Source of the DNA: Flavobacterium sp. SUN052
Lineage (GTDB): Bacteria > Bacteroidota > Bacteroidia > Flavobacteriales > Flavobacteriaceae
Assembly: GCF_028867935.1 (NCBI RefSeq)
Contig: NZ_JAPQNS010000001.1
Coordinates: forward strand, 992,001 to 1,056,000
Direction of reading: 5' to 3'
DNA length: 64,000 bases
Part shown: piece after piece, positions 6,804-41,818 of the stretch
Layout: each line of letters begins with the position of its first letter
How positions within the stretch are numbered: position 1 is the first letter of the stretch
Translations under genes and position numbers: made by a program
The notes under the pieces: model-generated
Databases searched by the model: none
What the model was told of the DNA's origin: nothing
The model's input: only the letters and a program-made list of their open reading frames with translations

Positions 6804-9218
6804 ATGGTTCGTAATTTTATCAACATCTCCCTGCGCAACCTCTGGCGCAATCGAAAAGTCACCGCTATCAGCACCCTGGGTTTGTCCATTGGGCTTGCCT
6901 GCGGCATCATCATTTTTCTGCTGGTCAGCTATATGTTTAGCTTCGACCGCTACCATACCAAGGCCGATCGAACATACTGGATCGTGACTGACATCAAGCA
7001 GGAGCAGTTTATTCCTACCGATGCTACGCCCCGCCCGTTGGGCGAAGTGCTGCGCCGGGATGTGCCATTTGTTGAAAATGCGGTGCGACTCGAAAACATG
7101 TTCAAGCGCATTGTCAGCGTACCCGACGGCAAAGGCGGCTATGCCAAAAAGTTTGAGGAATCACGCAATCTGTGCTTTACGGAACCGCAATTCTTTGACA
7201 TTTTCGATACCGAATGGATCAGTGGCAATGCTAAAACCGCGCTGGTTGCGCCGAATACCGTTGTGTTATCGGAGCGGTATGCCCAGAAATACTTCGGATC
7301 GGCTGATCCCATTGGTCGAACGCTTCGCTTTGATAATCAGGTCGATTTAACAGTTACCGGACTGGTCAAAAATCTGCCATCGAACACCAAACTGCGGTAC
7401 GATGTATTTGTCTCGTATGCTACCGTTCCGGGCCTGCTCGGCGAACGAGGAAAGCAGGAAATGCAGAATTGGGAGGGTATTTCCACGCTGTGTTTTGTGA
7501 CGCTCCGAAACGGAACACCCGTTGAGCAACTGGCCCGTGTGTTTCCCGGTATTCGCCAAAAATACCTGAAAACAGAAGAAGCCCGCAAACTCGACTTCCA
7601 CGCTTTATCCCTTGATAATCTGAATCATAATCCGCAATACGGCGGTCAGGCGCCCCGCCCAATTTTATACGCGCTGATTGTTGTGGGCCTGTTTCTGGTG
7701 TTGGCGGCCTGCATCAACTTTATTAATATCGCTACGGCGCATGCTTTGAAGCGCTCCAAAGAGGTTGGGGTTCGCAAAGTTATGGGCAGCACCCGGTGGC
7801 AACTAATTGGGCAGTTCATGACAGAAACGGCACTGATGACGATGGGAGCGGTGTTGCTGGCCCTGCTTCTGGCCGCGGCCTGCCTGCCCCTGCTGAACAA
7901 TGCGCTGGCCATGCTGAAAGCCGATATTTCGATTCTCGACGTGTTTGAGCCAAATTCACTGCGCTGGTTTGTGAGTTTGATTGTTGGCGTGATTTTCCTG
8001 GCTGGCTTTTATCCCGCCCTGGTTATGGCGCGTTTCAACTCCGTGGCAGCGCTTCGTACGGGGTATGGCCAGCTAACAACCAGGCAGGTGGGCAGTGTGT
8101 CGGTTCGGCGGGGACTGGTTGTCATGCAGTTTTTTATTACGCAGTTATTCCTGATTGGGGTTATTGTAATGATGGCGCAGGTGCGGCACATGCAGCAAAC
8201 CGACCTGGGTTTCCGCAAAGAAGCCATCCTGACCATTCCCGTTCCCACCAACAACCCCTTGAAACAGGAAGTAGTCCGCAGTAAAATGCGACAAGTGCCG
8301 GGTGTAGAGCTGGTGGCTTTGGGGGCAGAACCTCCCGCTTCGTACCGGCGAATCCCCGTACCATTCACCTACGACACGCACCCCGAGCCCGAGAAATTCC
8401 AGACGACGGTTAAGGTAGGCGATACCGGTTTTGTGCCGTTGTTCGGCATCAAACTGGTTGCTGGCCGGAACTTCCAGACGAATGACACTACCACCAACGA
8501 AGCGATCCTTAACGAGACGATGGTCAGGCAGTTGGATGTAAAGTCGCCTGCTGACGTGCTCGGTAAGAGCCTGCGGGTTTGGGGTACTACCAAAACAATT
8601 GTTGGTGTAGTGGCCGATTTCCACGTTAGCATCCTGAAAGAGCCAATTCCCGCTACAACCATTCTGAATCATTATCCCGAAAACCACATTGCGGCCTTGA
8701 AACTTGATCCGGCAAACCTCACCGCCACGGTAAAAGCCGTTGAAGCGAGTTGGAACGAGCTGTTTCCTGAACACGTGTTCACCGCCAATTTTGTGGATGA
8801 ATTGCTAAACCAGTTTTACCTCACCGAGCGGATTTTGCTGGGACTGGCGCAGGTGTTTTCGCTCATTGCCATTCTCATTGGTTGCCTGGGGTTGTATGGA
8901 CTGGTGGCGTTCATGGCCGAAGCCAAAACCAAAGAGATCGGTATCCGCAAAGTACTCGGTGCCAAAGTGAAAGAACTGCTCTGGTTGTTTGGTCGCGAAT
9001 TCAGCAAACTGCTGGGGATTGGTTTTGTACTAGCCGTGCCCATCGGCTGGTTTTTGATGAACGGGTGGTTGCGGGGCTATGTGTATCGCATTCAGCTCAG
9101 CTGGTGGGTGTTTGCCTTAACCCTGGGTGTCGCTGGGCTAATTACGGTGCTGACCGTTGGCTACGAGTCCCTCAAAGCGGCCCTGATGAACCCCGCAAAA
9201 TCGTTGCGGTCGGAGTGA
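6804..9218 (+). CDS. Duplicated FtsX/MacB-type permease, no prefix domain
   Basis: 804 residues starting directly at the membrane region (MVRNFINISLRNLWRNRK), so this is the short form without prefix. TM1 lies near 21-43; the first FtsX core has EVGVRKVMGSTR near 319 and the second has EIGIRKVLGAK near 710; it ends NPAKSLRSE, where most paralogues have NPVKSLRSE. It appears monocistronic: a divergent kinase lies upstream and an opposing gene begins its 3' end 11 bp downstream. The 188 bp upstream carry no copy of the (T/C)GTCC-N6-GGACA element seen at the padR loci, so it is probably controlled differently. Substrate unknown; no ATPase partner nearby. Confidence 0.92.
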   Translation: MVRNFINISLRNLWRNRKVTAISTLGLSIGLACGIIIFLLVSYMFSFDRYHTKADRTYWIVTDIKQEQFIPTDATPRPLGEVLRRDVPFVENAVRLENMFKRIVSVPDGKGGYAKKFEESRNLCFTEPQFFDIFDTEWISGNAKTALVAPNTVVLSERYAQKYFGSADPIGRTLRFDNQVDLTVTGLVKNLPSNTKLRYDVFVSYATVPGLLGERGKQEMQNWEGISTLCFVTLRNGTPVEQLARVFPGIRQKYLKTEEARKLDFHALSLDNLNHNPQYGGQAPRPILYALIVVGLFLVLAACINFINIATAHALKRSKEVGVRKVMGSTRWQLIGQFMTETALMTMGAVLLALLLAAACLPLLNNALAMLKADISILDVFEPNSLRWFVSLIVGVIFLAGFYPALVMARFNSVAALRTGYGQLTTRQVGSVSVRRGLVVMQFFITQLFLIGVIVMMAQVRHMQQTDLGFRKEAILTIPVPTNNPLKQEVVRSKMRQVPGVELVALGAEPPASYRRIPVPFTYDTHPEPEKFQTTVKVGDTGFVPLFGIKLVAGRNFQTNDTTTNEAILNETMVRQLDVKSPADVLGKSLRVWGTTKTIVGVVADFHVSILKEPIPATTILNHYPENHIAALKLDPANLTATVKAVEASWNELFPEHVFTANFVDELLNQFYLTERILLGLAQVFSLIAILIGCLGLYGLVAFMAEAKTKEIGIRKVLGAKVKELLWLFGREFSKLLGIGFVLAVPIGWFLMNGWLRGYVYRIQLSWWVFALTLGVAGLITVLTVGYESLKAALMNPAKSLRSE

Positions 9219-20577: not shown

Positions 20578-20912
20578 ACGCCACCGAGTTGAAGGGTATT
20601 GGGCGGAAGCAGTTGCCAGAGTTCCTGACGTAGTTGCTGAATTTCCTGAAGAGCGCGATTGCCCAGCGCCGTTACCCGAAACAGCCGCTTGCGACGACCG
20701 CCCCGTTCAGTAGTGGCTCCGCCTAGTTCGGATTTCACAAAACCCTTTTCTTCGAGCCGGATCAGTGTGTTGTGAACGGTGCCAAACGTGACCACCCGGC
20801 CGGTATGATCTTCCAGCGCCTGGCTGACCGTAACACCGTAGCCTTCTCCGTCGAGGATGGCCACCATCAGCAGTACCACTTCTTCAAATTCCCCCAAATA
20901 CGTCCGGCGCAT
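20574..20912 (-). CDS. PadR family transcriptional regulator (permease operon 1)
   Basis: 112 residues. The winged-helix fold is recognisable from LGEFEEVVLLMVAILDGEGYGVTV-like start, the recognition region GTVHNTLIRLEEKGFVKSE and the wing GGRRKRLFRVTALG, ending with the short dimerisation helix LQEIQQLRQELWQLL. This is the PadR plan: a small dimeric repressor that often binds hydrophobic molecules. It is the first gene of the operon and its stop overlaps the following permease start (ATGA). Closely similar to the PadR at 31426-31764, with the same length. Two inverted repeats at 21023-21059, 111 bp upstream of the start, are candidate binding sites. Acidobacterial duplicated orphan permeases are likewise linked to PadR genes, which supports a functional tie. 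Confidence 0.93.
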   Translation of the reverse strand: MRRTYLGEFEEVVLLMVAILDGEGYGVTVSQALEDHTGRVVTFGTVHNTLIRLEEKGFVKSELGGATTERGGRRKRLFRVTALGNRALQEIQQLRQELWQLLPPNTLQLGGV

Positions 20913-21022
20913 TCGCTTATTCTGATTAGTTTACATTTTATCGTACAAATCAGCGGCCAAACCCTCCAAAGTGCCATCACGGCTTTAAAAGAGGAAAATT
21001 GCCACCGATTCGATCATTGATT

Positions 21023-21059
21023 TGTCCGAAACTGGACAACAATCGTCCCACAACGGACA
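21023..21059. promoter_or_regulatory. Paired inverted repeats, candidate PadR operator 1
   Basis: TGTCC-N6-GGACA at 21023-21038 and CGTCC-N6-GGACA at 21044-21059, with centres 21 bp (two helical turns) apart. They lie in the 248-bp region between padR (start 20912) and the divergent dioxygenase-like gene (start 21161). Similar paired elements occur in front of the second padR at 31872-31957. Known PadR boxes are TGT/ACA inverted repeats too, but with a shorter spacer. Confidence 0.55.
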
Positions 21060-21160
21060 GGGGCTTGTGACATTCTTGTCGTGAAGCTGATGTTCTTTGG
21101 CCTACTACTTTTAGATGAGATAGCCAGAAATCATTGCTTTATTTAGAAAGCAACACGATC

Positions 21161-21793
21161 ATGAACAAGCAGATATGGATAGGGCTGGCAATTGCACTGG
21201 GCCTTTCAGTAAATGGGTATAGTCAGCCTAAACAGGTAGGTGGTCCCTGCGAAGGCTGCGAAGCCATTCATGAGAGCCCCGTACCGCTCGACAAGCTGGA
21301 TAGTTTCCTGAAAATGCCCGACGCAACCTGGACTGGTAAAAAACCGTTGGGTATCAATGGTATCGTGTACAAAGCCGACGGCAGAACTCCTGCGCCGAAC
21401 GTTGTGCTGTACATTTATCACACGGACGAAAGGGGGCATTACGTAGCCAAAGAGGCAACCGGCTGGGGCAAACGTCATGGCTCCATTCGAGGGTGGATGC
21501 GTACGAACGAAAAAGGTGAATACAAATTTGTCACGCTACGTCCCGCGCCCTATCCTGGCCGCACCGATCCGGCGCATATTCACATCACCGTGAAAGAACC
21601 GGGCCTGCCAGAATATTACATCGACGAATTCGTGTTTGCCGACGATCCGCTGCTTACCGCCGAGCAGCGGCAAAAGTTGGAGAACCGGGGCGGAAGTGGC
21701 ATCCTAACCCTCAAAGACGTGGGTAACATGTACAAAGCCAGCCGGACAATTATCCTCGGTCGGAACATTCCGAACTACCCTACGAACCAGTAA
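21161..21793 (+). CDS. Secreted intradiol ring-cleavage dioxygenase-like protein
   Basis: 210 residues from the ATG at 21161; an in-frame start at 21134 adds nine residues before a good signal peptide (1-22, ends NGYSQ). The body is the beta-sandwich of protocatechuate 3,4-dioxygenase beta-like proteins: GIVYKADGRTPAPNVVLYIY with the first iron-ligand Tyr, then GWMRTNEKGEYKFVTLRPAP, and PYPGRTDPAHIHITV, which supplies the second Tyr and the two His ligands. All four Fe(III) ligands expected of active intradiol enzymes seem present. A secreted form of unknown substrate is common in Bacteroidota; ring cleavage of catecholic compounds is the family reaction but is not established for this branch. 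A Cys-rich stretch (GGPCEGCEAIHE) follows the signal peptide. It diverges from padR operon 1. Confidence 0.85.
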   Translation: MNKQIWIGLAIALGLSVNGYSQPKQVGGPCEGCEAIHESPVPLDKLDSFLKMPDATWTGKKPLGINGIVYKADGRTPAPNVVLYIYHTDERGHYVAKEATGWGKRHGSIRGWMRTNEKGEYKFVTLRPAPYPGRTDPAHIHITVKEPGLPEYYIDEFVFADDPLLTAEQRQKLENRGGSGILTLKDVGNMYKASRTIILGRNIPNYPTNQ

Positions 21794-28721: not shown

Positions 28722-31409
28722 CTACTCCGTCCGCAAGCTCTTTATCGGATTCATTAGAGCTGTGCGGACTGCCTGAAAGCTGACGGTGACAAAGGCAATC
28801 AGAATGGCGGCAACGGCTGCGATACCAAACGTCCAGATACTAATGTCGATGCGATAGGTATAGTTTTCGAGCCATTGCTGCATGGCGTACCAGGCTGCTG
28901 GAAAGGCGAAAATAAACGACAGGGCAACCAGTTTCAGAAAATCGGAGGATAGGAGCTGAATGATGCTCGACGTGGAGGCACCCAGCACTTTTCGGATACC
29001 AATTTCTTTGGTGCGCCGTTCGGCCGAGAGGGTTGCCAGACCAAACAGGCCAATGCAGGAAATGAAAATGGTCAGAATGGCGCCAAATAGCATAATCTGT
29101 TTCCATTTGGCTTCCGATTCATAGCGTTTCAGGTTTTCATCGTCCATAAACGTGTATGCGTACGGGTTGAGCGGAAACAGTTTTCGGAAGGTTCGTTCAA
29201 TGTGTTTGAGGCTGGCAGTGACGTTGGCAGGCTTAATTTTTATGAAGGCCTTCCCATACGAATTACCCGGTTTCATGGTGAACAGCTGCGGAGGGATTTT
29301 CTGGTTCAGTGCATTGACATGATGATCCCTTACGACCCCCACAACCTGGTATTTTTCGCCTTTGTTGTACCAGAAATCAACAACCTGACCAATGGGGTTT
29401 TTCCAGCCCGCTTTTTTCACAAACGTTTCGTTTACCAATACCGATCGCGTGGAATCAGAGGGAAAATCAGCCGAGAAATTCCGGCCTTTCACAATCGGGA
29501 TTTTAAAGAGTGGCAAGAACGTGGGGTTAATGGTTTCATAAACGAAATTGATCTCGGTTCCGCCAGTTGCTTTTGCCACGGTCATCCACATGCCCCCGTT
29601 TTTGGGTGCCATGTCAATAATATTAGGGTTTTTCAGCAGTTCATCTTTCCACAGCGTTACTTCCTGGCGCGTCAGGCCCGACTTTCCCACGCTGACTACG
29701 CCTTTGTCGTCGTAGCCTAAATCTTTGGTAGTGATGTAATTGAACTGGTACTGGATCGTGAGGGTGGCAATAATCAGGAAAGAAGCCAGCGAAAACTGGA
29801 ACACAACCAGCGACTTCTGGAGGTAGTTTTTGCCGGAAAGGTTAAACCGGTTATACAAAGTCTGAACGGGACTATAGTTCGATAGAACCAGCGCGGGGTA
29901 GAAGCCTGCCAGAAAACCCGTAGTCAGAAAAAGGCCGAGATAACCCAACACCAGCCAAACATCAAACAGATACGAGAGGGCGAGTGATTTGTTCGCGAGT
30001 TGGTTAAACGTGGGTAGAACCAGCAGCACCAACCCCAGCGCCAGTAAAAACGCGCAAAAACAAAGTAGAAAGGACTCGCCCAAAAACTGGATCGTCAGTT
30101 GCAAACGGCCACTACCCACCACTTTTCGGACGCCAATTTCTTTGGCCCGTTTCAGGGACCGGGCAATAGTCAGATTGACAAAGTTGATACAGGCAATTAA
30201 CAAAATAAACAGCGCAATACCCGTCAGAATATATGAGTAAGTAGGGTTGCTTTGATCCGCCAGCCCGTTGGTGGCGGGTAGGTCGGTGCTCAGGTGCATG
30301 TCGGTAAACGGCTGTAATTGATACGACACCTTGTTTTTGAACCCGAATTTTTCGGATTGCATTTTGATGGCTTCTCTGGCATCGGCCAGATAAATTTGGT
30401 TCATTTTAGCCTCGACAGCCTTGATACGCTCGGGCGTGAGATCTGCCCTTGGGTTCAAGACCACAAACGTATTCTGGAACACATTAAACCAGTTTTCTGG
30501 ATTCGCCAGTTCGTTTGCACTGACAATCATCGGGAGCAGTAAATCGAATTTGACCGACGAATTTTGAGGGCATTTTTTGCTGACACCCGTCACGGTATAC
30601 GGCTCGAAAATCGCATTCTCGCCATACGAACTTTTGAGCGAAAGCGTTTTGCCCAGCGCATCAGTTGTGCCAAACTGTTTTACGGCCAGTTCCTCCGAAA
30701 TCACAGCCGAATGCGGTTCCTTCAGGGCTGTTTTGGGATTGCCGCTAAGCAGGGGGAAAGAAAACACAGAAAAGAAACTGGAATCGGCAGCAAAGGCTTC
30801 CTGACTGATAACCTCATTGCCGCGTTTCATGTCGTGTCGGTCGCCCTGGTACCGCACAAACGACTGAATTTCCGGAATTCCCGCGCTAAATTTTGGCCCC
30901 TGAAAATGGCCGGTATTCGATTGTTTAAACTCCAGCTTTCCAGCGGGCGACACCTCCTGGCTCGTTATCCGGTAGATGTGGGGGTTGTTGGCATGAAACC
31001 GGTCGTAGCTGACTTCATCTTTGGTATACAGCATAATCAGCATGGCAGCTGCCAGACCGATGCTCAGGCCAATGACATTGATAACCGAATACGCCTTGTT
31101 ATGAGCCAGCGTTCTGACAGCGATTTTGAGGTAATTACGGATCATACTGGGAGATAGTAACGCTTGGGTTGAAGCAGATGAGGGATAGGGAGACGGTTTT
31201 CGCTTGAGAAAAAATGGGTTGATGTAATGCACAACGGCCACCGCAAATTCGCGACCGGCACGGGCCTTGCCAACCTGATTTATACGCTTGTAAAACACTT
31301 CGTGCAAATCGCCCTGCACATCTTCTAGCAGGTGAGGAGCACAGCACCATTCGAGCAGCGCGTCGGCCCAACGGGGTGGTCTGGCTGGTTTTTGTGGTTC
31401 GGTTTTCAT
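28722..31409 (-). CDS. Duplicated FtsX/MacB-type permease with prefix domain (padR operon 2)
   Basis: 895 residues. The prefix (1-88) reads PPRWADALLEWCCAPHLLED and VQGDLHEVFYKR, close to the prefix of the permease at 2391 (CAPHL) and more distant from the pair at 15218-20577 (HPENTLEEVEGDLD). The core starts at Met89 (MIRNYLKIAVRT); the first FtsX core has EIGVRKVVGSGR and the second EIGIRKVLGAS; the C-terminus is NPIKSLRTE, the most divergent tail of the ten. It begins 16 bp after the padR stop, so it is probably co-transcribed with padR. It converges on the beta-helix gene with 28 bp between the stops and no clear terminator. Confidence 0.93.
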   Translation of the reverse strand: MKTEPQKPARPPRWADALLEWCCAPHLLEDVQGDLHEVFYKRINQVGKARAGREFAVAVVHYINPFFLKRKPSPYPSSASTQALLSPSMIRNYLKIAVRTLAHNKAYSVINVIGLSIGLAAAMLIMLYTKDEVSYDRFHANNPHIYRITSQEVSPAGKLEFKQSNTGHFQGPKFSAGIPEIQSFVRYQGDRHDMKRGNEVISQEAFAADSSFFSVFSFPLLSGNPKTALKEPHSAVISEELAVKQFGTTDALGKTLSLKSSYGENAIFEPYTVTGVSKKCPQNSSVKFDLLLPMIVSANELANPENWFNVFQNTFVVLNPRADLTPERIKAVEAKMNQIYLADAREAIKMQSEKFGFKNKVSYQLQPFTDMHLSTDLPATNGLADQSNPTYSYILTGIALFILLIACINFVNLTIARSLKRAKEIGVRKVVGSGRLQLTIQFLGESFLLCFCAFLLALGLVLLVLPTFNQLANKSLALSYLFDVWLVLGYLGLFLTTGFLAGFYPALVLSNYSPVQTLYNRFNLSGKNYLQKSLVVFQFSLASFLIIATLTIQYQFNYITTKDLGYDDKGVVSVGKSGLTRQEVTLWKDELLKNPNIIDMAPKNGGMWMTVAKATGGTEINFVYETINPTFLPLFKIPIVKGRNFSADFPSDSTRSVLVNETFVKKAGWKNPIGQVVDFWYNKGEKYQVVGVVRDHHVNALNQKIPPQLFTMKPGNSYGKAFIKIKPANVTASLKHIERTFRKLFPLNPYAYTFMDDENLKRYESEAKWKQIMLFGAILTIFISCIGLFGLATLSAERRTKEIGIRKVLGASTSSIIQLLSSDFLKLVALSFIFAFPAAWYAMQQWLENYTYRIDISIWTFGIAAVAAILIAFVTVSFQAVRTALMNPIKSLRTE

Positions 31410-31425: not shown

Positions 31426-31764
31426 TCAGCCTGTAATGAGTTGAAATTTGCCCTGTGGAATGGCCTGCCATAGCCGATCCCGAACTTCCTGTATGTCCTG
31501 CAAGGACCGAACGCCCAGCGCCGTTAACGTAAAAAAGCGTTTCCGTCGGCCTCCACGCTCGGCGGTGGCGCCCCCCATTACAGAGGACAAAAACCCTTTT
31601 TCTTCCAATCGATAGAGCGTCGCGTGAACGGCGCTCATGGTAATAGACCGCCCGGTCTGCTGCTGAAGATCTTCCCAGATAACCACGCCATAGGCTTCGG
31701 TAGGACAGGCGGCAACAACCAGCAAAACTATTTCTTCGAACTCACCCAGAAAGGACCTTCGCAT
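31426..31764 (-). CDS. PadR family transcriptional regulator (permease operon 2)
   Basis: 112 residues, the same length as the first PadR (20574-20912) and alignable end to end: MRRSFLGEFEEIVLLVVAA here against MRRTYLGEFEEVVLLMVAI there. It has the winged-helix signature AVHATLYRLEEKGFLSSV and wing GGRRKRFFTLTALG. It leads the transcript that continues into the permease at 28722, with 16 bp between them. The 300-bp region upstream holds two pairs of candidate operators, and the permease operon starting at 32065 diverges from it. The protein would therefore control both its own permease and the four-gene run, an inference from position and repeats. Confidence 0.93.
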   Translation of the reverse strand: MRRSFLGEFEEIVLLVVAACPTEAYGVVIWEDLQQQTGRSITMSAVHATLYRLEEKGFLSSVMGGATAERGGRRKRFFTLTALGVRSLQDIQEVRDRLWQAIPQGKFQLITG

Positions 31765-31871
31765 AGCGCTAGCGGACAGAAATGATTAGTTGTAATTATG
31801 CAAAACAAATCTCCTGCCAAACTGAAAAACACCCTTTTTTATCGGTTTGGAGCTTACTGGCCACATTCGCC

Positions 31872-31957
31872 TGTACGATTTCGGACAGTAAATGTCCAGT
31901 AGTGTACGGCCAGTTTCTGCCTGTCCAGAACCGAACGGCACCGTCCGTTTGCGGACA
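31872..31957. promoter_or_regulatory. Two pairs of inverted repeats, candidate PadR operator 2
   Basis: Four sites of the form (T/C)GTCC-N6-GGACA: TGTAC-N6-GGACA (31872-31887), TGTCC-N6-GTACG (31893-31908), TGTCC-N6-GAACG (31922-31937) and CGTCC-N6-GGACA (31942-31957). Sites one and four are the best matches; two and three have one good half. Centres within a pair are 21 and 20 bp apart. The outer edges lie 108 bp from the padR start (31764) and 108 bp from the permease start (32065). The remainder of the 300-bp intergenic region shows nothing else I can support. Confidence 0.55.
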
Positions 31958-32064
31958 TATTTTCGGTAGAACTAATGTGAAACTAGCTGATTAATAGTAT
32001 ACTATGTTTCTGGTATGGTGTTTGGGCTTGCTTTTAAACAAGCCGTACAAGCCGCTCAACTCCC

Positions 32065-34449
32065 ATGCTCAGCAACTACTTCATAATCGCCTGGCGAAAC
32101 CTGGTTCGCAACAAGGCATACGCATCAATCAATGTGCTGGGGCTGGCCCTGAGCCTGACCTGTGGCATTCTCATTTTTACACTCGTTAATTATCATTATA
32201 GCGTTGACCGGTTCCACACCCATGCCGACCGAATTTATCGGGTGGTGATGGAAACCCACCACGAAGGAGTTGGCTACTCGTCGGGGGTGTATTCGCCACT
32301 GGGCCGGGTGATTCGCGATGAACAAACGTTTGCTGAAAAAACAGCTCGTGTGCTGTCGGTAAACGGGGCGGTACTCAGGGTGCCTAATGCTGGCAAGGTC
32401 GACAAATACCGGTCAGACGTGGTGTTTGCCGAAAGCGACTTCTTCTCCATTCTCGATTTTCCCCTGATTCAGGGCGACGCCCAAACGGCACTCAACGCCC
32501 CCAACACCGCACTATTGACGGAGCGGATGGCGCAGAAGTTTTTCGGGACAGCTAACCCGATGGGCAAAACCTTTCGATTCGATAATCGGATGGATTTCAC
32601 CGTGACGGGCGTGCTTAAAAACCTCCCCGCCAACACCGACCGAAAGGAAGAAATTTACCTTTCATTTGCCAACGCGAAGCAGTATGACGAGTACTTCAAT
32701 GAGCAGAACTGGGGCAACTATTCAGGGGCTATGCAAGTGTTCACCCTGCTGAAACCGGCTACCACCGTGGCAACGGCGGAGAGTGCGCTGACCAGCGTCA
32801 TGAAAAAATACGTGACCGACGACAGTAATAACCACAACGTACTCAAGCTTCAGCCCCTGGCCGATATTCACCTCAACACCGATTACAGCGGTCGTATCGA
32901 CAAAACGAATCTATGGGTGCTGTCGCTGATTGGATTCTTGCTGATTGTTGTAGCCTGCGTCAACTTCATTAACCTGGCAACGGCACAGGCGCTCAAACGG
33001 GCCAAGGAGATTGGCGTTCGGAAAGTGTTGGGAAGCAGACCGGTGCAGCTTTTCTGGCAGTTTATGGCCGAAACAAGCCTGATCAGTGCAGTGGCCACCC
33101 TAATTGCCCTGGGTGCGGCCTGTCTGACGCTGCCTTTACTCAGTCAACTACTGCAAACGGAACTGGCAATCAATCTGTTTGGCGACCTGAAACTTTCGGT
33201 ATTTCTGCTTTTGTCGGCGCTGGTGGTCTCCTTCCTGTCGGGGGCATACCCCGGTCTGGTGCTGGCGGGTTTCAGGCCGGTGCTAGCGCTGAGTGGACGA
33301 CTGGCGCAACGGCACATCGGTGGTTTTCCCTTACGGCGGGTGCTGGTAGTGGGTCAGTTAGCCTTGTCGCAGCTGCTGATTATTGGCACCATTGTCATCA
33401 CCAATCAGATGCGCTATGCCAGAAGCGCAAACCTGGGTTTTGCGAAAGAAGGCATTGTGATGATGCCCTTGCCGGTTCAGGAAACCGCTAAAATGAGTAC
33501 GTTGAAATCGCAGTTTATGCAACTGCCGGGGGTCGAAAACGTGTCATTCTGTTTCCAGGCCCCGGCTGACCAAGACATCAATGCTACAACGGTTCGCTTT
33601 GGGGGACGGGCTCAGGATGAGAACTTCCTGATCATTACAAAAGATGCCGACGAGGAGTATGTGCCTACGTTCAAGCTGACGATGCTGGCGGGCCGGAACA
33701 TCACCCATTCGGATACGACCAACGAGTACGTTTTGAATGAAGCGGCTCTGAAAGCACTAAATGTGAAATCACCCCAGGAAGCCATCGGCCAGATGCTTTA
33801 CACCAGCAAAGGGCGCCGGAAAGGCCCTATTGTGGGTGTGATGAAGGATTTTCATAATGGGTCCTTTCGGCAGTCGATTCCGCCCATCTGCATCCGGGCT
33901 AATGCTGGAGACTACATCTCCTGTGCGGTGCGGATTAACCTAAGCTCTACGCGGACCGCGCTGCCGGCAATGGAAAAAATCTGGACGAAAACCTTCCCGG
34001 AATTCATTTACTCGCATCAGTTTCTGGACGAGCGAATCGCTGATTTCTACGCCCTGGATGAGCTGATGCTGACATTGCTGACCGTTTTTGCACTGATTGC
34101 CATTTTCATTGGCTGTCTGGGTCTGTTCGGTTTGGTATCGTTCATGGCCGCTCAAAAAACTAAGGAGATTGGTGTTCGGAAAGTGTTGGGGGCCAGCGTA
34201 CCCTCTATTCTGTGGCTGTTTGGGCAGGAATTTGTCCGGCTCACGCTGGTGGCCATCGTCATTGCCTCGCCCATAGCGTGGTACGCCATGAATCGCTGGC
34301 TCCAGAACTTTCAATATAAAGTCGACATTGCCTGGTGGGTGTTTGTACTGTCTGGTTTGCTGGCGGTTAGCATCGCCCTGCTCACGGTAAGTTTCCAGAG
34401 TGTAAAAGCCGCCCTGATGAACCCAGTGAAATCATTGAGAAATGAATAA
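32065..34449 (+). CDS. Duplicated FtsX/MacB-type permease, first gene of four-permease operon
   Basis: 794 residues, prefix-less (MLSNYFIIAWRNLVRNKAYA). TM1 near 21-43; first FtsX core EIGVRKVLGSR near 313 and second EIGVRKVLGAS near 703; tail NPVKSLRNE. Its periplasmic domains and the phrase LLIVVACVNFINLATAQ resemble the permease at 15218-17872, so the prefix was gained or lost within one subfamily. It is the nearest gene to the right-hand operator pair and probably carries the promoter of the run. Thirteen bases separate its stop from the next start. Confidence 0.93.
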   Translation: MLSNYFIIAWRNLVRNKAYASINVLGLALSLTCGILIFTLVNYHYSVDRFHTHADRIYRVVMETHHEGVGYSSGVYSPLGRVIRDEQTFAEKTARVLSVNGAVLRVPNAGKVDKYRSDVVFAESDFFSILDFPLIQGDAQTALNAPNTALLTERMAQKFFGTANPMGKTFRFDNRMDFTVTGVLKNLPANTDRKEEIYLSFANAKQYDEYFNEQNWGNYSGAMQVFTLLKPATTVATAESALTSVMKKYVTDDSNNHNVLKLQPLADIHLNTDYSGRIDKTNLWVLSLIGFLLIVVACVNFINLATAQALKRAKEIGVRKVLGSRPVQLFWQFMAETSLISAVATLIALGAACLTLPLLSQLLQTELAINLFGDLKLSVFLLLSALVVSFLSGAYPGLVLAGFRPVLALSGRLAQRHIGGFPLRRVLVVGQLALSQLLIIGTIVITNQMRYARSANLGFAKEGIVMMPLPVQETAKMSTLKSQFMQLPGVENVSFCFQAPADQDINATTVRFGGRAQDENFLIITKDADEEYVPTFKLTMLAGRNITHSDTTNEYVLNEAALKALNVKSPQEAIGQMLYTSKGRRKGPIVGVMKDFHNGSFRQSIPPICIRANAGDYISCAVRINLSSTRTALPAMEKIWTKTFPEFIYSHQFLDERIADFYALDELMLTLLTVFALIAIFIGCLGLFGLVSFMAAQKTKEIGVRKVLGASVPSILWLFGQEFVRLTLVAIVIASPIAWYAMNRWLQNFQYKVDIAWWVFVLSGLLAVSIALLTVSFQSVKAALMNPVKSLRNE

Positions 34450-34462
34450 ATACGAACACTAA

Positions 34463-36889
34463 ATGCTACGAAACTACATAAAAATTGCCCTTCGGACCTT
34501 CAGGAAAGATACCACCTTCACCCTCATCAATGTGGTGGGGCTGGCTACTGGGTTAGCTGTGGCATTGCTCATTATCCAGTATGTACGGTTTGAACTGAGT
34601 TACGAGAACACCAACCCACTGGCTGATCGAATTGTGCGGCTCAGTATGGATTACTTGAACGGTGGTGCCGTGGACGCGCAGGATGCTGAAATGTACCCTC
34701 CGGTTGGGGCCAAAGCGAAACGGGAAATGAATGAGGTTGTCAACTACACCCGCGCTTATCCCGTAAATAACCGCAGTGCGACGATTCAGATTAGCGATAC
34801 CTATTACCTTATCGATAACGTTTATGCCGTCGACTCCTCCTTTTTCTCGATGTTTAATTGCCCCCTACTCCGGGGAAGTCGGAAAGACCTCTTTACCAAA
34901 CCGCATCAGGTTGTTCTGACGGAAACGATGGCATTGACTTACTTCAAGACGCTGGATGTGCTGGGCAAAACCCTGAAAATGTCGAAGCGAAAAGGCAGTG
35001 CGCTGTTGGAAATAGTGGGCGTAGTACCAAACAACCCGGTCAATACGCATCTGAAATTCAATATGCTCATCTCGTACCCAACAATGTTGTCGGACTTCGG
35101 GGAACGGGAAGACAATTGGAACAACAATAATACGTACACGTATGTACAACTAGCCAAGAATGCCACGTATGAAAGGTTTACCAAATCACTGGCGGCCTTT
35201 AGCGATCGATTGGTTAGAGAAAAGAAAATAACCAACGAGCAAGTAATCGGCCAGAAGATCAGTGACATTCACCTGTATTCACACAAGACCTTCGAAACTG
35301 AGCCAAACGGTGAAGCGCGGTCGGTGTATTTTCTGCTGGGCGTCGCGTTTCTAGTACTCCTGAGCGCCTTTGTCAACTACGTGAATCTGACCACGTCTAA
35401 AGCCCTCGACCGGGCTCGGGAAATTGGTATGAGAAAGGTAGTTGGCTCCACCCAGAACCAGATAAGAACCCAGATTTTTACGGAAACTATTCTGATCAAT
35501 ATCGTTGCCGGGGGGCTGGCGGTGGGGTTGGTGGCCGCCCTACGGTCGGTGTTTGTTGAGGTGGCTGGCCTGCCCGATGGCTTTACTGTGTTTCGGGACG
35601 CCTTTTTCTGGGAAAGCCTGGGTGCGTTTTTAGTATTGAGTATTTGCCTGTCAGGGTTTTATCCGGCTTTTATCCTGTCGTCCTTCGATCCGGTTGTGGT
35701 GCTCAAAGGCAACTTTTCACGCTCCGTCAAAGGGACACTGCTGCGCAAGTCGCTGGTGGTTTTGCAGTTTACGATTACTATCATTCTGCTGGTGCAAACG
35801 TTCGCCGTTTACCAGCAGGTCAACTTTTTACGGGACCAAAATTTAGGTCTAGCTATTGATCATACGCTGGTTGTAAAAGCTCCGGTGGGAAGCAACGCCC
35901 AACAGGATTATGGTGCGTTTCGGCAGATGTTGCTCGATCAATCACAAGTAAAATCGGTATCCGTTTCCGGCACCGTACCGGGTCTGGGATCGGTGCAGAT
36001 GGGTACCACAACGGGTATCAATCTGTCGGAGGCCGTCAAGAAAACCTATTACAATTATTACCTGACTGAAATAGACACCTCGTTCTTCGACCTGATGGGC
36101 ATTAAGTTACTGGCGGGGAAAAACTTTGATGCCACCACCCGGCCGGGCTTTCAGGATACAACAAATCGGCAACTTATTGTCAATGAGGAGACCATTCGGC
36201 TTTGGGAAATACCCACGCCCGCAGCGGCTATTGGCAAGCGGGTTGACCTCTGGGGACATAAGGCGACAATTCGGGGCGTTGTGAAAAATTACCATTACGA
36301 ATCGCCGAAGGCAGCTCATATTCCGATCGTACACGTGTACTCGCCCAATTTCGATTCGTTTGCCAGCGTGAAGTTTGCGGGCGGAAACACGGGTGAGCAA
36401 CTGGCAACGCTGAAGAAGGTATACGAAGCCAATTTCCCCCATTCGCCGTTTAGCTATTTCTTCATGGACAGTGAGTACGACAAGCAATACAAAGCTGACG
36501 ACCGCTTTCAGCAGGTGTTTGGTGCCCTGACGGGCTTTGCCATTCTGATCTCCTGTCTAGGGCTTTTTGGCCTGGCTACGTTTACCGTTTCCAAACGCAC
36601 GAAGGAAATTGGCATTCGTAAAGTTATTGGGGCCAGCACCACCAACCTGATGCTTTTACTCTCCAAAGATTTCATCAGAACGGTTCTGCTATCTATCCTG
36701 ATTGGCCTGCCCATTACCTACTTCATTGTCAAAAACTGGCTGGCTAATTATGCCGCCCGAATCGAGCTAAGCTGGTGGCTTTTTGCCCTACCTGCCCTGG
36801 TGGTGATGGTATTGGTACTAGTGTCCATTGGCAGTAAAACGGTGGCTACCGCCCTCATGAATCCCGTTAAATCTTTACGTTCCGAGTAG
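34463..36889 (+). CDS. Duplicated FtsX/MacB-type permease, second gene of four-permease operon
   Basis: 808 residues, prefix-less (MLRNYIKIALRTFRKDTTF). The membrane segment LVLLSAFVNYVNLTTSKALD and EIGMRKVVGSTQ mark the first FtsX core, and EIGIRKVIGAS the second; the tail is NPVKSLRSE. This copy is the most diverged of the four in the run: it uses VNYVNLTTSKA where the others have FINLATAQA, and the last helices read LPALVVMVLVLVSIGSKTV rather than the usual ALLTVSFQS. Gaps on either side are 13 bp, so it is surely co-transcribed. Its periplasmic loops may bind a different partner from its neighbours. Confidence 0.92.
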   Translation: MLRNYIKIALRTFRKDTTFTLINVVGLATGLAVALLIIQYVRFELSYENTNPLADRIVRLSMDYLNGGAVDAQDAEMYPPVGAKAKREMNEVVNYTRAYPVNNRSATIQISDTYYLIDNVYAVDSSFFSMFNCPLLRGSRKDLFTKPHQVVLTETMALTYFKTLDVLGKTLKMSKRKGSALLEIVGVVPNNPVNTHLKFNMLISYPTMLSDFGEREDNWNNNNTYTYVQLAKNATYERFTKSLAAFSDRLVREKKITNEQVIGQKISDIHLYSHKTFETEPNGEARSVYFLLGVAFLVLLSAFVNYVNLTTSKALDRAREIGMRKVVGSTQNQIRTQIFTETILINIVAGGLAVGLVAALRSVFVEVAGLPDGFTVFRDAFFWESLGAFLVLSICLSGFYPAFILSSFDPVVVLKGNFSRSVKGTLLRKSLVVLQFTITIILLVQTFAVYQQVNFLRDQNLGLAIDHTLVVKAPVGSNAQQDYGAFRQMLLDQSQVKSVSVSGTVPGLGSVQMGTTTGINLSEAVKKTYYNYYLTEIDTSFFDLMGIKLLAGKNFDATTRPGFQDTTNRQLIVNEETIRLWEIPTPAAAIGKRVDLWGHKATIRGVVKNYHYESPKAAHIPIVHVYSPNFDSFASVKFAGGNTGEQLATLKKVYEANFPHSPFSYFFMDSEYDKQYKADDRFQQVFGALTGFAILISCLGLFGLATFTVSKRTKEIGIRKVIGASTTNLMLLLSKDFIRTVLLSILIGLPITYFIVKNWLANYAARIELSWWLFALPALVVMVLVLVSIGSKTVATALMNPVKSLRSE

Positions 36890-36902
36890 ATACCAACAAT
36901 AA

Positions 36903-39353
36903 ATGCTACGAAACTATTTCACCACCGCCTTCCGCGCTCTGAAGCGCAACTGGAACTACTCGACCATCAATGTATTGGGATTGACCCTGGGTCTGGCGAG
37001 CTGTTTGCTCTTGTTCGTAGCCGTCCGCTACGAACTGAGCTTCGACAAGCACAACAAAAACGCCGACCGCATTTACCGGATGCTGGGTAGCGACAAAACC
37101 GCGACGGAAGATAAACCCGGTGTGGGAATCACATTTCCGGCCCTGGCTGCGCTCCGTACTGAATTTCCGGAGCTGAAACACCAGCTCACTATGGTTAGTC
37201 AGGTTCGGTCGGCAGTGGTATCGGTAGGTGGCCCGACTGGTACCGACAAGAAGCGATTTCAAGAAACGAACAATGTAATTGCGTTTGCCGAGCCGGAGTA
37301 TTTTAATCTATTCGATTACACATGGGAAAAAGGCAGTCCGCAAACGGCACTTGCGAACCCCAACACGGTGGTGCTTACTGATCGAATTGCCCACAAATAT
37401 TTTGGCGATACCAACCTGATGGGTAAAACCATTCGGCTTGACAACAAGATGGATTTTGTGGTAACGGGCATTGTGCAGGCTCCACTGGCTACCACCAGCA
37501 TGCCCTTTGATGTGTTTCTGGCGCATGCTTCTATTCTGGCTTATGGCAATACATCGCCCCCAGACGATTGGAAATCAACCTATAGCGGGGCTCAAATTTA
37601 CATGATGCTGCCTCCAACTACGGCAAATGCGGAGTCTCAAGTCGCCAGGATCGAGCGTCAGCTGGTTGGCTTTGTCAAAAAATACCACGACCCGGAGGAT
37701 GCCCAGAAGCTGAAATACGTTTTACAGCCCCTGACCGATATACACTTCGCCACCAACACCTCAAATTTTGCCCAGCGCAGTATCAGTATCGAAATGATTT
37801 GGGCGATGGTGCTGATCGGGCTGTTTATTCTGGTAACGGCCTGTATTAACTTTATCAATCTGGCAACGGCTCAGGCTATTCGCCGGTCAAGGGAAGTGGG
37901 CGTTCGGAAAGTGTTGGGAAGTACCCGGGGGCAACTGGTGCGGCAGTTTCTGGGCGAAACCGGCGTGTTGACGGGCATAGCGGTGGTAATGGCGTTGGTG
38001 GTAGCTCAAGCGTCGCTCCCTTATGTAGGTGACTTGCTGAATATTACGCCAGGTGCAGTGACCTTGTTGAGCCCCCTGGTACTTGGCTTTTTGGTAAGCT
38101 TAGGCGTGCTGACAACGGTGCTGGCGGGTTTTTATCCTGCCCTGGTGTTGTCGGGTTATCAGCCGATTTTAGCCCTTAAAGGCCGGGTTCAGGCAACGGC
38201 AGCGGGTAACTATTTCACCCTCCGCCGGGGGTTGATTGTTGGGCAGTTTGCCATTTCTCAGATCCTGATCATCGGGACTATTATCGCTTATAGTCAGATG
38301 GAGTTTTTCCGCTCTGTCGATTTGGGCTACAACCGGGATGCCGTCTTGACCGTTTCGTTACCTCAAAATGAGCCGGGTCAGCTGGAGAATTTACGGGCTA
38401 AGCTCACCAGTGAGCCGGGCGTAAAGTCGCTCAGTTTCGGCATGAGCAGCCCCTCCGCTAAAAATAACTGGACCACGAGTTTTCGATTTGAAAATGACGA
38501 CAAAGATCCCGGTTATGGTGTTGTGATGCGCCCCGCCGACACGGCCTATGTTCGTACGTATGGCCTGAAACTGCTGGCCGGACGAATGTATCAACCTGCC
38601 GATTCCATCCGGGAGCTAGTGATCAACGAGACGTTTATGAAACGGCTGGGATTTCAAAAGCCCGAACAGGTGATTGGAAAGCAGATGGCGGTGGCTGGCG
38701 GGACCGTAAAAAAACCAATTGTGGGCGTGGTGAAAGATTTTAATATGTTTTCATTGCGGGATAAAGTCGAGCCAAGCGTGTTGACTACCCAGCGGGGAAA
38801 CTACGTTTCAATGGCCATCAAACTATCGACCGCAGAGGGTAGGACCAAGACCATCAGTCAACTCTTGAATCGAGTCGAAACGGCCTGGACAGCAACCTAT
38901 CCTGAGTTTGTTTTCTCCTACGAATTTCTGGACGAAACACTCGCCAACTTCTACAAGAGCGAAGAAAAACTGTATTCATTACTTCAGTTACTGGCGGTCA
39001 TTGCCATTTTCATTGGTTGCCTGGGGCTTTACGGGGTAGTTGCGTTTATGGCTGAAACCCGCACCAAAGAAGTGGGTATTCGCAAAGTGCTGGGTGCGTC
39101 CACGGCCCACATCTTCAGCCTGTTTTCGGTCGATTTTGTCCGGCTCGTGCTGGTTGCCCTGGTGTTGAGTTCACCCGTTGCCTGGTATGTGATGAATAGC
39201 TGGCTGAAGGACTTTGCCTACAAAATTGACATCGAGTGGTGGGTGTTTGCGCTGGCGGGATTGGTGGCCGTGGGTATTGCCTTGTTGACGGTCAGTTTTC
39301 AGAGTATAAAAGCGGCTTTGACTAACCCGGTGACGAGTTTGCGAAGTGAGTAA
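36903..39353 (+). CDS. Duplicated FtsX/MacB-type permease, third gene of four-permease operon
   Basis: 816 residues, prefix-less (MLRNYFTTAFRALKRNWNY). First FtsX core with REVGVRKVLGSTRG, second with KEVGIRKVLGAST, tail NPVTSLRSE (Thr instead of Lys, shared with the next gene). The first half includes FILVTACINFINLATAQAIR, like the members at 6804 and 32065. It starts 13 bp after the previous stop. Its final stretch FAYKIDIEWWVFALAG is almost identical to that of the first permease in the window (ending 2338), while the periplasmic regions differ widely, so the membrane ends are under shared constraint or exchange by gene conversion. Confidence 0.93.
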   Translation: MLRNYFTTAFRALKRNWNYSTINVLGLTLGLASCLLLFVAVRYELSFDKHNKNADRIYRMLGSDKTATEDKPGVGITFPALAALRTEFPELKHQLTMVSQVRSAVVSVGGPTGTDKKRFQETNNVIAFAEPEYFNLFDYTWEKGSPQTALANPNTVVLTDRIAHKYFGDTNLMGKTIRLDNKMDFVVTGIVQAPLATTSMPFDVFLAHASILAYGNTSPPDDWKSTYSGAQIYMMLPPTTANAESQVARIERQLVGFVKKYHDPEDAQKLKYVLQPLTDIHFATNTSNFAQRSISIEMIWAMVLIGLFILVTACINFINLATAQAIRRSREVGVRKVLGSTRGQLVRQFLGETGVLTGIAVVMALVVAQASLPYVGDLLNITPGAVTLLSPLVLGFLVSLGVLTTVLAGFYPALVLSGYQPILALKGRVQATAAGNYFTLRRGLIVGQFAISQILIIGTIIAYSQMEFFRSVDLGYNRDAVLTVSLPQNEPGQLENLRAKLTSEPGVKSLSFGMSSPSAKNNWTTSFRFENDDKDPGYGVVMRPADTAYVRTYGLKLLAGRMYQPADSIRELVINETFMKRLGFQKPEQVIGKQMAVAGGTVKKPIVGVVKDFNMFSLRDKVEPSVLTTQRGNYVSMAIKLSTAEGRTKTISQLLNRVETAWTATYPEFVFSYEFLDETLANFYKSEEKLYSLLQLLAVIAIFIGCLGLYGVVAFMAETRTKEVGIRKVLGASTAHIFSLFSVDFVRLVLVALVLSSPVAWYVMNSWLKDFAYKIDIEWWVFALAGLVAVGIALLTVSFQSIKAALTNPVTSLRSE

Positions 39354-39388
39354 TTTACTATATTGCTTTCTCCCTTCGCTCGTCTCCT

Positions 39389-41818
39389 ATGCTGACCAAT
39401 TACGTAAAGATTGCCTGGCGTTCCCTCGTTCATCAACGGTTATACAGTTTGCTCAACATTACCGGTTTGGCACTGGGGCTGGCAACCTGTGGTTTGCTGG
39501 TTCAATACGTCCGGTTCGAAAAGAGCTATGATCGGGTAGCGCTCGACCAGGTAGAGGAGAAACCCGTTTATCGGGTTGAAAGTCTGTTTTACGGGGCTGG
39601 TCATAAATCGGATCACTGGGCGACGAGTACCAACGGATGCGCCCCGGCAATGAAAGCCAGCTTCCCCGAAGTGGAAAACTTCACCCGCATTGCCTGGCGC
39701 AACGCTGAGCGGGTTGTCCGATATACTAATCTGAAGTACCGCGAAAAGCACGTTTGCCTGGCCGATTCCAACTTCTTTACCTTTTTCGATTACCCCGTGC
39801 TGCTGGGTGACCGTCGGACGTTTCTGAACGAACCGAACACCGTTGTCCTGTCTGCATCAACGAGCAAGAAGTATTTCGGTGGCCAAAATCCACTTGGTAA
39901 AACACTGAAAATAAGTACCCTTTCGCAGGAACTTACGTGCCAGGTTACAGGTGTTTTCGCGGATATTCCTGTCAACTCAACTATGCAGTTCGACATGCTG
40001 ATTTCGGGACGAACAGCATCATCCCGGTACTGGCACTACTGGTATCAGCACTCCAGCTATACGTTTGTTCAACTCAAACCGAACACCGATCCCGGTCGCC
40101 TTGAAGCCAAGTTTCCAGCCCTGGCCGAGAAATACAAAACGGAGGCCAGTATGCGGGATGTTACGTGGGGGATCAAACTGGTTCCGATACAGGACCTGCA
40201 CCTTAACCCCGCTACGCCAAACGAGGTTGAAGTGAAAGGCAACCGGACCGTGGTCCAGTTCCTGTTCATTATTGCACTGGTTATTCTGCTGATCAGCTGG
40301 GTAAACTATAGCAACTTGACCACGGCGCGGGTAATGCACCGGGCCAAAGAAGCAGGTATCCGACGCATGATTGGCTCCACCCGCCGGATGCTGCTGGCGC
40401 AGTTTGTGGTCGAGTCGATGTTGGTTCATACCATTGCGCTGATCGTTGCTATTCCGGTTGTGCTCCTGGCTACGCAATGGCTTCCTGACTCGCTGCATCT
40501 CCAGGCTGCCCAAAGCGTATGGACCGAGCCCCTGGTTGTGATTGGGTTTCTGGCTCTGTGGCTGGTTGGTATGCTGGTCACGGGTGTGTACCCGGCTTTT
40601 GTGCTGTTACGAACTTCGCCTTCTGCGGTACTCAAAGGCAATGCGAAAGTGTTGGGAACTGGACAGCCGTTGCGGCAAGGGCTGGTGGTGGTGCAGTTTA
40701 TGATTTCGGTGATACTGATAGTGAGTACGCTGGTCGTGTATCGGCAAACGGCGTACATGATGGGGCAGCGGCCGGGGGTGTTAACGGATCAGGTTGTGGT
40801 ACTCAAATCACCCGTAACCACGCCTGATTATGCCAGTAAAGTTGAGCTATTGAAAAAGCGCATTGGTGCGCTGGCGGGCGTATCGGCCGTTACGGGGTCG
40901 GGCTCCGTGCCGGGTAAAGAGGTGGGGCAATTTCTGGCCAATCGCCGGTTCGAAGCGCAGACTGCCAACAACCGGCTTTTCGAAATGCTGAAAGTCGACT
41001 TCGAATTCATGCCTACCTATGGATTACGTATTGTGGCCGGTCGCGGGTTCGACAAAACACGGCCAGCTGATTCTACGGCACTGGTGCTCAACGAATCGGC
41101 GGTGAAGCAGTTTGGCTTTACGTCCATCCAACAGGCCATTGGTCAGAAAATAGCGCTGGAAACAACGCCTAACCAGGCCAGCGAGATTATTGGTGTCGTG
41201 CAGGACTACCACCAACAGTCGCTGCACCAGCTGTTTACGCCCCTCGTATTGTTTATGGACCCGGCTTTCCCCTGGATTCCGACCAGTTTCTATTCCATTA
41301 AGTTCCGCGCCAATAAGCCTCAGCAGTTACTCGCCCAAGTCGAAACCATCTGGAGTGAACTCTTCCCCGAATCGTCGCTGGACTATTTCTTTCTGGATGA
41401 TTTCTACGCCCGGCAGTACGAGTCCGACAGGCAGTACAGCTTTCTGTTCACGCTGTTTGCGGGCATTGCCATCTTTATTGCCTGTCTGGGTTTATTTGGT
41501 CTGGCTACGTTCAGCGCTCAGCAACGCACCAAAGAAATTGGGGTTCGGAAAGTGTTAGGGGCCAGCGTAGCCAGTCTCGTTACGCTACTCTCCAAAGATG
41601 TGGTCAAGCTGGTACTGATTGCCATTGTTATTGCTACCCCGCTGGCCTGGTGGGCCATGAGCAAATGGCTGGCCGATTTCGCCTACAAGATTGATATGGC
41701 CTGGTGGATGTTCGCCCTGGCGGGTTTACTAGCCGTTGCCATCGCCCTACTCACCGTTAGTTTCCAGAGTATCAAAGCAGCCCTGGCCAACCCGGTGACC
41801 AGTTTGCGGAGTGAGTGA
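39389..41818 (+). CDS. Duplicated FtsX/MacB-type permease, last gene of four-permease operon
   Basis: 809 residues, prefix-less (MLTNYVKIAWRSLVHQRLY). The first FtsX core is atypical: VILLISWVNYSNLTTARVMH and EAGIRRMIGSTRR, where other copies have E[IV]G[IV]RK; the second core is standard (EIGVRKVLGAS). Tail NPVTSLRSE. Loss of the canonical Lys/Val pattern in the first coupling motif may mean that half no longer contacts an ATPase in the usual way. The 35-bp gap before it is larger than the other two in the run but contains no terminator. No terminator is seen between its stop and the PA14-OmpA gene, 84 bp away. Confidence 0.92.
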   Translation: MLTNYVKIAWRSLVHQRLYSLLNITGLALGLATCGLLVQYVRFEKSYDRVALDQVEEKPVYRVESLFYGAGHKSDHWATSTNGCAPAMKASFPEVENFTRIAWRNAERVVRYTNLKYREKHVCLADSNFFTFFDYPVLLGDRRTFLNEPNTVVLSASTSKKYFGGQNPLGKTLKISTLSQELTCQVTGVFADIPVNSTMQFDMLISGRTASSRYWHYWYQHSSYTFVQLKPNTDPGRLEAKFPALAEKYKTEASMRDVTWGIKLVPIQDLHLNPATPNEVEVKGNRTVVQFLFIIALVILLISWVNYSNLTTARVMHRAKEAGIRRMIGSTRRMLLAQFVVESMLVHTIALIVAIPVVLLATQWLPDSLHLQAAQSVWTEPLVVIGFLALWLVGMLVTGVYPAFVLLRTSPSAVLKGNAKVLGTGQPLRQGLVVVQFMISVILIVSTLVVYRQTAYMMGQRPGVLTDQVVVLKSPVTTPDYASKVELLKKRIGALAGVSAVTGSGSVPGKEVGQFLANRRFEAQTANNRLFEMLKVDFEFMPTYGLRIVAGRGFDKTRPADSTALVLNESAVKQFGFTSIQQAIGQKIALETTPNQASEIIGVVQDYHQQSLHQLFTPLVLFMDPAFPWIPTSFYSIKFRANKPQQLLAQVETIWSELFPESSLDYFFLDDFYARQYESDRQYSFLFTLFAGIAIFIACLGLFGLATFSAQQRTKEIGVRKVLGASVASLVTLLSKDVVKLVLIAIVIATPLAWWAMSKWLADFAYKIDMAWWMFALAGLLAVAIALLTVSFQSIKAALANPVTSLRSE

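Follow-up and report, generated by a model that had tools for sequence, protein, structure and literature searches.

In systems of the NtrC family (AtoC, ZraR and NtrC), paired dyads lie upstream of a -24/-12 promoter, and the regulators combine REC, AAA+ and HTH_8 domains. The same domains occur in a response regulator encoded at C1:865308-866723 (minus strand), where PF00072, PF00158 and PF02954 all score above their cut-offs. This gene is on the same contig as, and outside, the window, by which we mean the whole stretch of 64,000 nucleotides analysed here. The best NCBIfam matches of the regulator are PEP_resp_reg, AtoC and ZraR, yet it misses the cut-offs of all 25 NCBIfam models listed (PEP_resp_reg, 350.8 against 502.6 bits; AtoC, 341.5 against 714 bits). 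It also differs from NtrC, AtoC and ZraR in having GAFTDA where GAFTGA is usual and in its predicted targets, which are families of orphan permeases.

The closest described permeases are the ADOP orphan permeases (TIGR03434, TIGR03433), FtsX/MacB_PCD proteins without an adjoining ATPase gene that occur with a small PadR, as here. Two permeases tested from the window score 284.2 and 335.8 bits against TIGR03434, below its cut-off of 622.3, and the two window PadRs score 30 and 32 bits against the TIGR03433 cut-off of 102. The darobactin exporter DarBC is matched at a level that does not indicate membership, by the adaptor encoded in the operon next to the regulator gene (DarC, 199.6 against 450 bits) and by two window permeases (DarB, 132-134 against 700 bits). 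To our knowledge, the role of FtsX/MacB-type permeases without partners has not been settled. Those without adjoining partners are greatly multiplied in this genome, with permease genes forming 16 groups on contig C1 (phmmer with window proteins, E<=1e-5).

Sigma-54 control of FtsX-like permeases is already predicted, as sigma-54 promoters were reported to be enriched before COG0577 genes in gamma-Proteobacteria, Opitutia and Bacteroidia (PMC12316311, PLoS One 2025). That study presents the result as the first evidence linking the COG0577 family to sigma-54; its main text lacks the terms palindrom, PadR, UAS and Spirosoma, and we found in it no mention of the activator or of a PadR layer. In the main text of an account of sigma-54 as a controller of the bacterial exterior (PMC3162934), no word starts with permease, FtsX or Bacteroid. 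The site predicted for Desulfovibrio DVU2894, yGTCA-N6-TGACr (PMC4641369), has the half-site YGTC and the N6 spacer in common with the window pairs described below. Its inner base is A and that of the window pairs is C, and there the regulator, part of a flagellar cascade, is predicted to act on its own gene. In the open-access literature we found no report of the enhancer, activator or PadR layer considered here.

Paired palindromes and promoters in the padR-permease gap

The intergenic stretch 31765-32064 separates padR (31426-31764, minus strand) from a run of four permease genes (32065-41818, plus strand). The padR gene encodes 112 aa, matches PF03551 at 29.2 bits (cut-off 27) and is the first gene of an operon in which an 895-aa FtsX/MacB_PCD permease follows (28722-31409, minus strand). 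The four FtsX/MacB_PCD permeases opposite have 794, 808, 816 and 809 aa, the Pfam search covering the first two. Start codons were the first in frame or were chosen by reading, and operons were deduced from gene order.

Four 16-mers of the form YGTCCG-N4-CGGACR, with starts at 31872, 31893, 31922 and 31942, form two pairs in this gap. Scored on the 10 specified positions of YGTCC-N6-GGACR, the padR-facing pair consists of TGTACGATTTCGGACA (31872-31887, 9/10) and TGTCCAGTAGTGTACG (31893-31908, 9/10, one weaker half), with starts 21 bp apart. The permease-facing pair consists of TGTCCAGAACCGAACG (31922-31937, 9/10, one weaker half) and CGTCCGTTTGCGGACA (31942-31957, 10/10, a full match), with starts 20 bp apart. 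Our recomputation thus reproduced the four repeats, their pairing and their spacings as given in the first-pass annotation. The annotation had also placed both pairs 108 bp from their genes. The distances are indeed equal, and the figure needs correction, because 107 bases intervene on each side between the outer edge and the start codon (padR at 31764, minus strand; permease at 32065, plus strand) and 108 is the coordinate difference. In 100 first-order Markov sequences of 64 kb each, single sites scoring at least 9 occurred about 6.8 times per sequence, and a cluster of four sites within 90 bp, counted at a laxer threshold (score of at least 8), occurred once in all 100 sequences. The pairs look like genuine regulatory sites, one per divergent unit, through which padR and the permease run would be controlled jointly, and to this extent the original proposal stands.

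A third pair of the window (21023-21059, starts 21023 and 21044) lies upstream of a second padR-permease operon (15218-20912, minus strand), which comprises padR (20574-20912) and two permeases (17869-20577 and 15218-17872). On the other side of this pair is a gene on the plus strand (21134-21793); the closest -24/-12-like match there is poor and lies at a different distance.

Each pair has its own sigma-54-like promoter. Scoring used the consensus YTGGCACGNNNNTTGCW (TGGCAC-N5-TTGC type). The padR element, TTGGCAGGAGATTTGTT (31804-31820, minus strand), stands 51 bp from its pair, and the same element and distance recur in padR relatives. That of the four-permease run, CTGGTATGGTGTTTGGG (32010-32026, plus strand), stands at 52 bp and has a weak -12; its score of 19 is equalled in 12% of random 105-bp stretches. 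The second padR has TTGGCCGCTGATTTGTA (20944-20960, minus strand), 62 bp from its pair. Among 17 promoters listed by hand (12 on C1 and 5 on other contigs), for each of which the best consensus match between pair and gene was taken, the element lies at a fixed distance in all 17, at 51-54 bp in 12 and at 61-62 bp in 5. Eight of these promoters precede padR, six precede permeases without padR, and one each precedes an adaptor, an ABC ATPase and a 132-aa protein. Left out of the list were a strong single site in a hairpin (C1:888519), three other single sites (C1:991134, C12:463004 and C12:467963), two pairs, one weak (C35:347225) and one overlapping (C35:353696), and the opposite directions from C34:49643 and C35:353674, the direction of the latter having been picked after its element was seen. 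The pair C1:1231785 emerged later from the full scan and is outside the 17; both it and another C1 promoter outside the list (1297804) have an element at 52 bp.

For several promoters the single -24/-12 scores are modest, and the strength of the pattern is the fixed distance. The match at 51 bp of promoter 883141 ties with another position, promoter 1070139 scores 17 (equalled in 42% of random 105-bp stretches), and the -12 is degenerate, with the usual GC mostly GA, GT or GG. The two distance classes are one helical turn apart, and the sites within a pair, 20-22 bp apart, lie on the same helix face. The classes were first recognised in these same data. The sets of loci described below test them better, although they include many close kin.

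A sigma-54-like promoter of its own, fixed in distance, gives each pair the geometry of an enhancer, and the idea of one divided operator serving both sides of the gap finds no support. The equal distances to the two genes would follow from each pair being positioned with respect to its own promoter, with two units back to back. The genome encodes one RpoN (PF04552) and nine strong PF00158 proteins. We consider it very probable, from the sequence evidence as a whole, that the pairs are sigma-54 enhancers, one for each divergent promoter, used by the NtrC-type activator of C1:865308-866723 together with RpoN. The padR gene would then probably be a target of its enhancer and itself be switched on, and the repeats would probably not be a binding site for the neighbouring PadR.

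Pairs across contig C1 and the genome

Contig C1 was read whole (1,655,283 bases, 20% of the 8.1-Mb genome). Among the matches listed in a pattern search of the genome, the same pairs occur upstream of other permease operons, both with and without padR. On C1 we detected 13 pairs with a score of at least 29 and a spacing of 19-23, whereas five Markov sequences of equal length gave 1, 1, 2, 1 and 1. When spacings of 12-60 were allowed at a score of at least 32, 13 pairs were obtained, in which spacings of 20, 21 and 22 stood out (11 pairs). The other two, at 49-50, are, judging from their scores and distances, combinations of the two neighbouring pairs of the window. The first palindrome of the pair at C1:904261 has N5 inside; it was missed by the fixed-N4 scan and added by eye to the 17 listed promoters.

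FtsX-type permeases are present in every gene run led by the 13 pairs of the first set, and a padR or permease start lies directly downstream of 11 of these pairs. The pair at 869863 leads an adaptor-ATPase-permease run; the one at 1297804 is of a TGTGCG type and stands before the genes of a second regulator, a run that includes two permeases. Counted from the genes, 11 of the 16 C1 permease groups have a pair within 2.5 kb upstream; no pair was found within that distance upstream of four groups (880357, 889160, 998804 and 1037114), and group 1291602 has a more distant TGTGCG pair only. One of these four is in the window, a lone FtsX-type permease at 6804-9218 (C1:998804-1001218). The first-pass annotation had suggested enrichment near padR and permease genes as a check on its motif. 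Run on C1, this check gave a strong enrichment, which follows permease operons and not padR.

Two sites on C1 have a different appearance. The segment C1:888498-888560 consists of a long inverted repeat with a T run after it and contains an enhancer-like palindrome (888519); it is terminator-like and was not counted. The TGTGCG pair at 1297804 likewise sits inside a long inverted repeat and could also be a terminator.

Pairs were also seen before other kinds of genes. At C34:49643, a pair and a sigma-54-like element precede an ABC ATPase gene and a TolC-like gene (named by eye), which suggests that this control extends to ATPase and outer-membrane partners of the permeases. At C35:353558-353711, the gene behind a pair and a good -24/-12 element (TTGGCACACTGATTGCC, at 54 bp) encodes a 132-aa protein that is not a permease and has a DUF3244 match just below the cut-off; the regulon may therefore reach beyond permeases.

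The NtrC-type regulator and alternative explanations

C1 holds four of the nine strong PF00158 genes, and a TGTCCG-type pair is nearby only at C1:865308-866723, the three others having none beside them. The regulator gene is about 3 kb, with one gene between, from the pair of the adaptor-ATPase-permease run, and a histidine kinase gene (C1:861198-862586), a possible partner, is a few genes away. Among the best 80 of 132 orthologue loci, which range from Spirosomataceae to Bacteroidales and Proteobacteria and include many close kin, 55 have a pair with an element at 49-55 or 60-66 bp, compared with none of 80 reversed loci and one of 80 shuffled ones. Within these 80 loci, 58 of the 65 element matches beside pairs fall inside the two distance ranges and 7 outside. 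In all 55 loci with this layout the chosen promoter points away from the regulator. When genes within 400 bp are considered, 41 loci have an HlyD-like gene as the first labelled one, one has a permease, and 13 have none labelled. Transporter genes lie within 6 kb on the promoter's strand in 52; in the other three (L187, L195 and L198) the pair is near a contig end. In most of the 55, the pair stands before an HlyD-ATPase-permease operon. It is often about 50-400 bp before the regulator gene, and about 2 kb away in many Spirosoma loci. By these criteria 25 of the 80 loci, including loci of Cyclobacteriaceae and Bernardetiaceae and several of Spirosoma, lack the layout; some of the 25 are on short contigs.

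A match to the regulator at E<=1e-120 was detected in 6 of 60 genomes listed as related, this genome included, and the relatives, genomes of 0.3-5.7 Mb, carry regulators 47-50% identical to it. Identity is higher in Rudanella (81%), Larkinella (68-69%) and Spirosoma (65-68%), and the orthologue comparison drew on named loci such as these (best 80 of 132) in place of the listed relatives. In this respect the placement of this 8.1-Mb genome looks odd: the genomes listed in the same genus measure 1.8-5.7 Mb, and the three of these in which the regulator is matched reach 47-48% identity, versus 68-82% in Rudanella and Larkinella.

Base 4 of the half-site tends to vary with the residue in the recognition helix. 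Helices with SRQ, TRA or TRT occur mostly with TGTCCG half-sites, and those with TRF or TRY (Bacteroidales) or TRK (Rhodothermales) with TGTGCG. This genome has an example of the latter, a second NtrC-type regulator (TRF) encoded with a kinase beside ABC transporter genes (C1:1290123-1298000); its own gene run is preceded by a TGTGCG pair and, 52 bp from the pair, a good -24/-12 element. There are exceptions, with one TGTGCG site beside a TRA regulator (L191) and TGTACG beside a TRT regulator (L175), and several half-sites labelled C carry A or T at base 4. The association amounts to two changes on the tree, in which some branches are long and the labels were given by hand. Given the two changes, the exceptions and the mixed sites, we take it as support and not as proof.

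In the GAFTGA loop of the best 80 of 132 orthologues, GAFTDA is found in 68 and GAFTGA in 5, and 7 do not match the pattern. GAFTDA is listed among the GAFTGA variants thought to be functional (PMC4641369). VfmH also has GAFTDA, and no RpoN was detected in a pull-down with VfmH (PMC10714721).

A padR relative is present in 23 of 30 genomes searched (E<=1e-10), often with about 10 per genome and up to 18. A pair occurs upstream in 27 of 30 padR-relative loci (score 29-34), and all 27 have a sigma-54-like element at 51-53 or 61-64 bp. Two of the 30 loci (L241 and L243) have no pair by score and still have a -24/-12-like element, and at one (L236) the start was not located; some of the genomes are close kin, and two loci (L231 and L232) differ little. 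Of the seven among the 30 genomes without a PadR match (E<=1e-10), a pair adjoins the regulator in five: Rudanella paleaurantiibacter, Ferruginibacter paludis, Pontibacter sp. BT731, Bacteroides mediterraneensis and Phocaeicola plebeius, the last two with the TGTGCG form. In these five the pairs lead a transporter operon adjoining the NtrC-type regulator. No pair was found at the regulator locus of the other two, both Cytophagales MAGs (L160 and L165). The pairs in genomes without a PadR match indicate that PadR is not a necessary partner and point to the NtrC-type regulator.

Repressors of the PadR family are dimers and bind to inverted repeats, and the first-pass annotation had assigned the pairs to the adjacent PadR, as operators divided between its own permease and the divergent run. 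The assignment was a natural one, with padR adjoining 8 of the 17 listed promoters. It is nevertheless very unlikely: in this genome pairs also precede permease operons that have no padR, and they stand at the transporter operon beside the regulator in the five genomes where no PadR relative was found at E<=1e-10, and on these two observations we rejected PadR as the binder. In addition, the kind of pair is the same among PadR paralogues whose recognition helices differ, but their blocks after the -12 are different, and a repressor site needs no fixed distance to a sigma-54 element. An operator-like site beside a repressor gene thus need not belong to that repressor. Least credible of all is that the repeats are structural (a terminator, a cruciform or a mobile repeat) and only look like operators. 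The palindrome at C1:888519 does lie in a terminator-like hairpin, a long inverted repeat with a T run, and the TGTGCG pair at 1297804 is part of another long inverted repeat, but such an origin would not account for the spacing, the promoter distance or the conservation from Bacteroidota to Proteobacteria.

An enhancer used by another, or by several, of the nine enhancer-binding proteins is a somewhat less remote alternative, though still improbable. The eight other strong PF00158 proteins could in principle bind, and Fis-type HTH sites of like form are not unique, as the DVU2894 prediction illustrates (PMC4641369). Against this, the pair adjoins orthologues of this very regulator in 55 of the best 80 of 132 loci, with 0 and 1 in the controls. 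An HlyD-like gene follows in 41 of those 55, the motif changes with the regulator's recognition helix, and the other three PF00158 genes of C1 have no TGTCCG-type pair beside them.

We therefore return to the pairs as enhancers of the regulator at C1:865308-866723. Each pair would offer two sites, two helical turns apart, to dimers of this protein, which joins REC, a sigma-54 AAA+ domain and a Fis-type HTH. A signal would act through a histidine kinase, possibly that of C1:861198-862586, and lead to phosphorylation of the regulator. Once phosphorylated, the protein would form oligomers on the pair and from there make contact with the RpoN-RNA polymerase at a -24/-12 element lying 51-54 or 61-62 bp, or five to six turns, from the pair, and in some promoters a bend at an IHF-like site in between would perhaps help. 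Many permease operons would rise together. The gap studied here would hold two such units back to back, padR-permease and the four-permease run, with the third pair of the window at 21023. With such a scheme, orphan permeases would be joined by a common regulator and signalling route, further members could be recognised by an exact DNA code, and a candidate specificity residue would be at hand.

A candidate PadR operator and the spacer before the promoter

If the pairs do not serve PadR, its likeliest operator is a block just downstream of the -12, of the TTTGCAAAATTACAACTAAT type (31785-31805, minus strand), which overlaps the start region and is nearly invariant in relatives of the window padR. 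More generally, the roughly 20 bp after the -12 are nearly invariant within PadR groups and different between groups, while the -24/-12 element and the enhancer are unchanged. No clear symmetry was found in the PadR blocks by dyad score. With this block as its operator, PadR would be a feedback repressor of its own operon, and probably acts back on its own promoter in this way. The next best C1 matches to the block have 5 mismatches in 24; the divergent permease promoter is not among the C1 matches listed. One of them is at the padR promoter of 935682, so that some cross-talk is possible.

These blocks allow a tentative reading in two layers, which we regard as a real possibility short of a favoured one: one two-component activator with RpoN would use the shared paired enhancer to open most permease operons of the cell together, and each private PadR would close only its own promoter through a private operator. 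If true, a common signal would arm all paralogues and private repressors would choose which are made. The candidate PadR operators would then form a compact model for how paralogous operons under one activator are told apart.

The spacer between pair and promoter also differs among operons. In the permease promoter of the gap, an IHF-like sequence, AAACTAGCTGATT (31980-31992, plus strand), lies between enhancer and promoter; it matches 7 of 9 positions of the IHF consensus and is ordinary when taken alone. Matches of 7-9 of 9 at an offset of 21-23 after the pair occur in 6 of 9 non-padR promoters, this one included, the five others matching at 8-9 of 9. None of the 8 padR promoters has an IHF-like site at this offset. 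In shuffled spacers, a score of at least 7 was reached in about half and of at least 8 in 8%; as such scores are often reached, only the fixed place speaks for the IHF-like site. Several padR promoters have an inverted repeat where the IHF-like site stands in others. Examples of inverted repeats between the enhancer and the -24, terminator-like in some cases, are those of the padR promoters C1:935538-935690 and C1:904261-904406 and of the ABC promoter at C34:49643; they possibly insulate the promoter from upstream transcription.
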